From Halobellus limi (GTDB taxonomy: Archaea; Halobacteriota; Halobacteria; Halobacteriales; Haloferacaceae), in assembly GCF_004799685.1 (NCBI RefSeq), contig NZ_CP031311.1:806001-870000 (forward strand): 64,000 nucleotides of DNA. The letters run 5' to 3'. Every line of letters begins with the position of its first letter. Within the stretch, counting starts at the first letter, position 1. The translations under genes and the position numbers were made by a program. This document shows, in pieces, positions 55,645-56,451 of this stretch. Under the pieces are notes generated by a model. It had not been told where the DNA came from and ran no database searches. It saw only the letters and a program-made list of their open reading frames with translations.

Positions 55645-56058
55645 ATGGAGTACGCGTACCCGATCGTCGGGTTCATCGCTGGGATGGCGCTCGTCGCTAC
55701 CAGCGTCTTCACGGCGTTCGTCTACACGCCGACGACGACCTCCACGGTCGACACCGCGCTGACGGCCTTCACCGGCGTGACGCTCCAGGTGGGTGACTTT
55801 CTCGCCGTCGCCTCGATGACCGCGGTCGTCTTCGATCTGCTCGCGACGCAGTTGGGGGTCCGATTCTCGCTCGTGGTCCCGTTCGGGGTCGGCTATCTGT
55901 TCACGCACGTGATCATCTACTACTCGTCGCTGCGGATCACCGACGTCCAGAGCCAGCCGCTCGATCCGGATTTCGACATCCGGGAGAACCCGCTTCGGCT
56001 GGCCACCCTGTCGATTCCCGGCGCGTTGATCCTGCTACCCGCGGCACGGCGTCGGTGA
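55645..56058 (+). CDS. Small integral membrane protein
   Basis: This 137-residue protein has four probable membrane segments: YPIVGFIAGMALVATSVFTAFVY, VGDFLAVASMTAVVFDLLA, FSLVVPFGVGYLFTHVIIYYSS and LATLSIPGALILLPAA. The internal THVIIYY piece is the most polar. No known motif is seen, and it has no close gene partner. The preceding 104 nt after the secreted protein show nothing else. Function unknown; hydrophobic organisation is reliable. Confidence 0.65.
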   Translation: MEYAYPIVGFIAGMALVATSVFTAFVYTPTTTSTVDTALTAFTGVTLQVGDFLAVASMTAVVFDLLATQLGVRFSLVVPFGVGYLFTHVIIYYSSLRITDVQSQPLDPDFDIRENPLRLATLSIPGALILLPAARRR

Positions 56059-56377
56059 GCGGATAAGTGAAACAGCTCTTTGAGGCAAGGTCGCTTTTAC
56101 GTGGATCTCCCCCGTAGGCACAGGTGCCCAGGTTGGGCCGCCCGCGATTCGGTCCCCGCCGACGCGAACGCAACCGATCCCGGCCGCCTCCCCACCCCTC
56201 CCCTCCCCGCCGGGATCGGTGGCCCACCGACTGGGCACCCCCCGCTGACGCGTTCCCTCCCTCGCCTACGACGCGCCGCCTTGCCCCGCGGATGTCCCAC
56301 CTCCCGACGGAGAGCGAGACGGTAGAACCCGAAACACCCCGGAAGAGACGTCACTCGCGGTCAGAACCGTAGCGGAG
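56059..56377. other. 319-nt intergenic region with G4-forming palindrome
   Basis: No gene is visible. It contains a 12-bp perfect inverted repeat around a C-rich loop (56173-56220, listed separately) and C-rich runs, and otherwise ordinary GC-rich sequence between a membrane-protein gene and tRNA-Thr. Confidence 0.6.
56173..56220 (-). repeat. 12-bp palindrome with G-quadruplex/i-motif loop
   Basis: Arms accgatcccggc (56173-56184) and gccgggatcggt (56209-56220) pair perfectly. The loop 56185-56208 contains four CCCC tracts separated by single bases (56190-56208 on plus); the minus strand reads GGGG-A-GGGG-A-GGGG-T-GGGG, a canonical intramolecular G4 sequence. It may terminate or process the tRNA transcript, or form a cruciform. 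Confidence 0.8.
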
Positions 56378-56451
56378 AGCCAGGGGTGGGATTCGAACCC
56401 ACGAAGTCTCGATTACAAGTCGAGTGCATGAACCGCCCATGCTCCCCTGGC
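56378..56451 (-). tRNA. tRNA-Thr (anticodon TGU)
   Basis: A 74-nt cloverleaf is formed: acceptor GCCAGGG/CCCTGGC (with T discriminator), D stem GCAT/ATGC, anticodon stem CTCGA/TCGAG with loop CTTGTAA, variable ACTTC, and T arm GTGGG/CCCAC with loop TTCGAAT. Anticodon TGT reads ACA/ACG codons. No CCA is encoded. Positions 8-9 are GA, not the usual T8, and no A14 is present. It begins 14 nt after the stop of the GNAT gene on the same strand, without a clear TATA box of its own. Confidence 0.9.

Follow-up and report, generated by a model that had tools for sequence, protein, structure and literature searches.

A hairpin with a C-rich loop in the genome of Halobellus limi is very probably part of a conserved haloarchaeal small-RNA gene

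The 64,000-nt stretch of the Halobellus limi genome analysed here (the window) carries, between a membrane-protein gene and a convergent tRNA gene, a perfect palindrome whose loop presents four regular G-tracts on one strand. Does this hairpin act as DNA, or does it belong to a transcribed unit? According to the original prediction, it is a cruciform with a quadruplex or i-motif loop, which could block transcription from both sides or bind a protein. The description of the element was confirmed in full: an inverted-repeat finder returned two 12-bp arms that are exact reverse complements, the minus strand of the loop reads GGGG-A-GGGG-A-GGGG-T-GGGG, the hairpin lies 3' of the plus-strand gene for a 137-aa membrane protein and its distance to tRNA-Thr, predicted as about 160 nt, was measured as 156 nt. 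The minus-strand motif GGGGAGGGGAGGGGTGGGG (56190-56208) is the sole match in the 64 kb and was found in 0 of 100 dinucleotide shuffles. Within the window, one pair of perfect 12-bp arms separated by 3-30 nt was found; five mononucleotide shuffles gave one in total, so that the arm length by itself is only mildly unusual. The palindrome combined with the G-tract loop is not explained by chance. The sequence comparisons described below indicate that the hairpin very probably belongs to a real, conserved small-RNA gene. All features of the locus are summarised in Table 1.

Table 1 Features of the predicted RNA gene and its neighbours (positions refer to the window)
Feature	Position	Strand	Sequence or basis
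137-aa membrane-protein gene	55645..56058	+	no match in Pfam; always next to the RNA gene in Halobellus and g10
48-bp promoter block	56070..56117	+	AAACAGCTCTTTGAG box, TATA-like TTTTA (56095-56099), terminal CCGTAG; conserved in Halobellus
Predicted transcription start	56122..56126	+	start spacing of protein genes with the same block
P1, 5' arm	56123..56131	+	GGTGCCCAG; invariant in Halobellus except for one bulge position and the first bases
P1 continuation, 5' arm	56134..56139	+	TGGGCC, paired with 56221-56226; folding
P2 hairpin	56143..56166	+	loop CCCC at 56154-56157; folding, conservation
P3, 5' arm (palindrome)	56173..56184	+	ACCGATCCCGGC; inverted-repeat search
P3 loop	56185..56208	+	CGCCTCCCCACCCCTCCCCTCCCC, 24 nt; C-rich with almost no G; minus strand carries the G4 tracts
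P3, 3' arm	56209..56220	+	GCCGGGATCGGT; inverted-repeat search
P1 continuation, 3' arm	56221..56226	+	GGCCCA; folding
P1, 3' arm	56231..56239	+	CTGGGCACC; inverted-repeat search
3' tail	56240..56262	+	CCCCGCTGACGCGTTCCCTCCCT; counterpart of GCU...UUCGGCCCUCC tails elsewhere; conservation
tRNA-Thr (TGT)	56377..56451	-	convergent neighbour, outside the unit; tRNA annotation

A DNA search of the 170 genomes of the family yielded matches in 24, comprising 12 strong matches, found in 12 of the 17 Halobellus genomes (that of H. limi included), and 12 short, weak ones among the 153 genomes outside this genus. A search of a plasmid collection gave no match. The 12 Halobellus genomes with the element are the same 12 that carry the gene for the 137-aa protein; the other five lack both. 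The conserved stretch begins just 3' of this gene with AAACGGCTCTTTGAG...TTTTACG...CCGTAG and proceeds through GTGCCC(A/C)GGTTGGGCCGCCCGCGATTCGGTCCCCGCCGACGCG, a variable C-rich hairpin and the 3' arm of the outer stem to CCCCGCTGACGC..YCCCTCC, so that conservation is bounded by the promoter block at its start and the tail at its end. The palindrome is good in most homologues; L009 and L011 have a poor version of it and L013 has none. A C-rich and G-free stretch is present in all 12 Halobellus homologues. Among the 12 homologues scored for G-tracts, including L010, which is cut off by a contig end, four GGGG tracts are kept in two (the window and L003) and four tracts of at least three G in six. 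The G4 motif is thus largely not conserved in close relatives and a conserved quadruplex was rejected. Copies of the tail pattern elsewhere in the H. limi genome did not exceed those of a reversed-pattern control. Tandem-like CCGYYGACG..CGTTCCCC copies resembling the tail were observed directly after a stop codon in L027 (~1488-1640; G000:C2:~348,281).

Folding of the plus strand predicts a three-way junction, formed by P1 with its continuation, P2 and the noted hairpin as P3. In this model, a larger fold spanning 56122 to ~56262 has the hairpin as its third stem and is enclosed by a second inverted repeat (the two arms of P1) that was absent from the original prediction. The plus-strand RNA was found to be more stable than shuffled sequences (z -3.4 for 56100-56260, -4.35 for 56122-56266), while the minus-strand RNA was less marked (z -1.8 for 56100-56260). 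Folds of ten single homologues gave z values from -2.6 to +0.5, several of which are unremarkable. Counting pairs in the alignment of 11 full-length Halobellus sequences yielded 90% standard pairs and no pair with changes in both partners; the sequences are too conserved for pair counting to test the fold inside the genus. For the same alignment, RNAalifold proposed a pairing that differs from the three-stem fold. With Rfam 15 covariance models at the gathering threshold only tRNAs were detected in the window, and nothing credible was detected in the relatives' loci, by which a known Rfam RNA was rejected. Terminators of Haloferax volcanii are mainly T-stretches according to PMC7237163. No T-stretch follows the tail, hence the 3' end of the RNA at ~56262 is approximate.

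The predicted RNA forms an intergenic unit with a promoter of its own, consisting of the conserved 48-bp block and its TATA-like element, as would be the case for a haloarchaeal small RNA. The block starts 11 nt 3' of the stop codon of the 137-aa gene. The exact pattern was matched in 29 of 392 genomes of the order. Several of the matches outside the genus, including other haloarchaeal families, show identical 48-bp spacing, after which come a C-rich stretch and the same tail. When two mismatches were allowed, at least one match was present in 139 of 283 genomes among the matches listed, many by chance or inside genes. From these matches, 60 further stretches were picked by promoter quality and many weak or coding-internal matches were omitted, so that frequencies across genomes are not to be taken as estimates.

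The loci 3' of the block fall into two groups. Group A comprises protein genes: 42 of 43 listed loci have a reading frame starting mostly 6-11 nt after the block, which makes these genes nearly leaderless. From these distances, of which 8 nt is the commonest, transcription at our locus was predicted to start at 56122-56126. Inspection by eye assigned a lipobox signal to about 23 of the products and another signal peptide to about ten, with about five small membrane proteins and four HTH regulators; Pfam analysis of ten products named SIMPL, Beta_propel, DUF4349 and HTH_20/HVO_1552_C. The group A products resemble surface proteins, among them lipoproteins and SIMPL and beta-propeller proteins. 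The RNA locus therefore has its promoter block in common with genes of envelope type (lipoprotein-like, SIMPL, Beta_propel, DUF4349 and membrane proteins, with signal peptides called by eye). A shared code AAACGGYYGTTTGAG-N~10-TATA was observed before surface-protein and HTH-regulator genes of several haloarchaeal families (L168-L262), probably marking a regulon.

In group B, no gene follows the block, but a C-rich, RNA-like sequence with the tail GCU...UUCGGCCCUCC. Group B has 46% C and 27% G, compared to 34% C and 33% G in group A. The motif GGCCCTCC was found within 320 nt at 28 of 33 loci with a convergent metallophosphoesterase, which include seven near-identical Haloferax copies, and at 9 of 75 others (counted by hand). 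Two or more CCCGC...UUCGGCCCUCC copies of the tail motif are present in the group B units L220, L240 and L249. In f12 (L146, L234, L235, L237), the tail motif overlaps the final codons of the convergent metallophosphoesterase gene, which ends in VEGR as read by eye.

At a typical group B site, the RNA-like unit is flanked on one side by the gene of an HTH regulator (HTH_20 + HVO_1552_C) anchored in the membrane and on the other by a metallophosphoesterase gene in convergent orientation. The regulator of Haloferax, encoded immediately 5' of the RNA, combines HTH_20 and HVO_1552_C and has a membrane helix at its C-terminus (by eye), and the regulator lies 5' of 17 of the 18 metallophosphoesterase-linked loci with enough upstream sequence. 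Such a canonical locus with regulator, promoter box, tail and metallophosphoesterase also exists in the H. limi genome itself (G000:C1:~582,500): after the regulator ortholog (C1:582655-583599) come AAACGAGAATTTGAGTTTACG...TATTTTG, then the tail GCCGCTTCGGCTCTCCACC and finally the metallophosphoesterase gene (69% identity). In the predicted fold of this copy, a stem encloses a small hairpin and a second hairpin whose long loop is C-rich; the stability is no greater than that of shuffles (z -0.51). The same block stands in front of a regulator paralogue (C2:242952) and a similar one at a lipoprotein-like gene (C1:2302473). Linkage to a regulator gene is a property of the canonical copies and not of the copy in the window, which, given the canonical locus elsewhere in the genome, looks like a diverged paralogue.

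Pairing between the two ends of the group B units was examined by a swap test, in which the first 20 nt of each unit were combined with its own downstream sequence or with that of other units. Own partners paired better than swapped ones (mean -26.0 compared to -22.5 ± 0.44 kcal/mol, 0 of 10,000 permutations, n=51, the sequences being partly selected by their tail). The result holds without Halobellus (-25.1 and -22.3, n=41) and in a 28-sequence subset, and no effect was seen for 61 other promoter loci used as control (p = 0.16). Many single units rank first to fourth of 51; others are average. The set of 51 omits the protein genes L225, L228, L229, L252 and L258, the near-identical Haloferax copies L149, L152, L153 and L154, the truncated L010, and L012, whose promoter falls outside the pattern used. 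The stem arms vary by genus, with GAGGUCGCGCG/CGCGCGGCCUC in Haloferax and GUGUCCCGCCCCGC/GCGGGGCGGACAC in f17.

Is the RNA of the window related to the regulator-linked family? The covariance model scored near chance outside Halobellus (best E 0.004) and produced no convincing member there, so kinship is based on promoter, tail, architecture and composition; on these grounds we regard it as likely. The alternative is a small RNA invented in Halobellus and genus g10, which recruited the same promoter box. Neither the covariance model nor blastn provides a link to other genera, the bodies of the RNAs have no alignable sequence in common and the Halobellus tail is only loosely like GCUUCGGCCCUCC. 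However, copies in g10 follow the same 137-aa gene with the same promoter block, a diverged C-rich unit and intermediate tails (CCCCGCCGACGTTCGGCCCTCC or similar), and the canonical copy likewise has its enclosing stem followed by a small and then a C-rich hairpin. An independent origin is rather unlikely.

A leaderless gene for a small protein, starting at GTG 56124 with a frame of 82 codons in the window, is quite improbable. Many copies do have a GTG at +6 after the block and the frame of the N-terminal VPRLGRPRFGPRRR is open in several of them, but it meets a stop at codon 8 in L004, shifts in L009 and L011, starts with CTG instead of GTG in L007, L008 and L010, and ends at once in L186 (GTG-TAG), while nucleotide conservation extends to the wobble positions. 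Since the reading frame is not conserved, a protein-coding small gene was rejected.

The original prediction placed the hairpin behind two genes and suggested that it could block transcription from both sides. The 137-aa gene lies 5' of the element at 11 of 11 homologous loci, and the hairpin directly 3' of it both in Halobellus and in g10; termination by hairpins is possible in H. volcanii, as stated in PMC7237163. That the hairpin is a terminator or 3'-end processing site of this gene is nonetheless very improbable, because the promoter block separates the two, a T-stretch is lacking and orthologous genes in other genera have no hairpin: in Haloferax-type genomes the orthologue, often beside tRNA-Thr, is without the element, and in g9 and g16 tRNA-Thr often follows the orthologue without the unit. 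A role behind tRNA-Thr fared no better. The tRNA gene was found at 5 of 11 homologous loci within the flanks fetched, with gaps of ~159, 165, 627, 709 and 823 nt, so that the hairpin has no constant position relative to it, and a T-run is absent from the sequence. A bidirectional terminator was rejected on the basis of this variable distance, the separate promoter block and the orthologous genes lacking the element.

Other features were noted as well. In genus g26 (L136-L139), a strongly conserved unit AGACCGAGGAGGTCCAGCGGCAGACTGCGGGTAGGGGTAC...TCTGACGCTGNCTCCCGGCGCATTATC lies ~150-300 nt 3' of the homologue of the 137-aa gene; it has a TATA-like element but no AAAC...TTTGAG box and may represent another small RNA whose tail is similar. 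A search for it in 392 genomes gave only weak partial matches elsewhere, in three genomes. Within the window, G+C falls from ~0.68 to ~0.50 at 22000-46000 over an island of surface-glycan genes (NeuB, Polysacc_synt_2, DegT aminotransferase, Capsule_synth, Glyco_transf_61, sulfatase).

A functional DNA cruciform, as originally proposed, is highly improbable despite the very regular G-tracts and a stable DNA hairpin (z -3.9), given the G-tract counts in the homologues, the conserved outer stem, P2, promoter and tail, all of which lie outside it, and the variable distance to tRNA-Thr. Binding of a protein or another partner is possible, for which the C-rich strand of the RNA is a likelier site than a quadruplex in the DNA. 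If selection acts on the other strand to keep an RNA loop C-rich, a striking G4 motif can arise as its by-product.

Taken together, we slightly favour the reading as a haloarchaeal small RNA that is a diverged second copy of the regulator-linked family, belongs to a surface regulon and acts in trans; a function in an envelope regulon, taken separately, is an even call. The plus strand would be transcribed from ~56122-56126 to ~56262 into a non-coding RNA with P3 as one of its stems. A regulator of the HTH_20/HVO_1552_C family would read the AAACGGYYGTTTGAG box, and the RNA would be made in response to a need to adjust the cell envelope or protein export. It could act in trans, with the C-rich loop and the CCCUCC tail pairing with G-rich stretches of putative target mRNAs and limiting their translation, by analogy with bacterial envelope-stress small RNAs. 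According to PMC3986360, Shine-Dalgarno pairing is not used at 5'-UTRs in H. volcanii, which weakens an anti-Shine-Dalgarno mode, although such a mode is possible. More tentatively, haloarchaea may possess an envelope or secretion-stress circuit like sigma-E/Cpx, in which a membrane-tethered HTH regulator, surface genes with one promoter code and a co-regulated small-RNA family, to which Halobellus and its sister genus add a further paralogue, are connected, and in which rapidly evolving C-rich loops together with the conserved GGCCCUCC tail restrain translation. If true, this would provide archaeal small-RNA biology with a testable circuit in which an RNA of several haloarchaeal families is tied to a regulator anchored in the membrane and to a defined promoter code. 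Little is known about regulators of the H. volcanii small RNAs.

No description of the promoter, tail, RNA or regulon was found in the literature searched, where a Haloferax counterpart may stand nameless in supplements; the accessible parts of PMC3956466, PMC5892119, PMC4983044, PMC12482152 and PMC7565180 do not name the RNA. Intergenic small RNAs such as sRNA132 and s479 are known in H. volcanii (PMC6560208, PMC8155600), to which the predicted RNA is comparable as a small intergenic haloarchaeal RNA. According to PMC3956466, 22 of 27 tested H. volcanii small RNAs are confined to that species. Unlike most of these, the RNA described here has a promoter and a tail that are recognisable across haloarchaeal families. 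TssR/TssS is a name for a haloarchaeal secretion-stress pair; it was not found in the literature searched and was not used as evidence.

Small RNAs with C-rich loops are known from Gram-positive bacteria, namely RNAIII, the Rsa RNAs and LhrC. The predicted RNA resembles them in its single-stranded C-rich loops (CCUCCCC, CCCUCC), for which G-rich sites in mRNAs could be pairing partners. The setting differs, since Shine-Dalgarno pairing is reported in PMC3986360 not to drive 5'-UTR initiation in H. volcanii. The likeness is stated without a claim of homology. The enterobacterial envelope-stress small RNAs MicA, RybB and CpxQ are controlled by sigma-E or Cpx and have an Hfq-type U-rich end. Compared to these, the haloarchaeal RNA has an archaeal TATA promoter, an HTH_20/HVO_1552_C regulator in place of sigma-E/Cpx, long C-rich loops without an Hfq-type U-rich end, and targets that are putative. 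In common with them, the promoter signal of the RNA gene is also that of surface-protein genes, and the usual copy adjoins a regulator gene; if the proposed circuit is real, it would constitute a parallel to the bacterial envelope-stress small RNAs.
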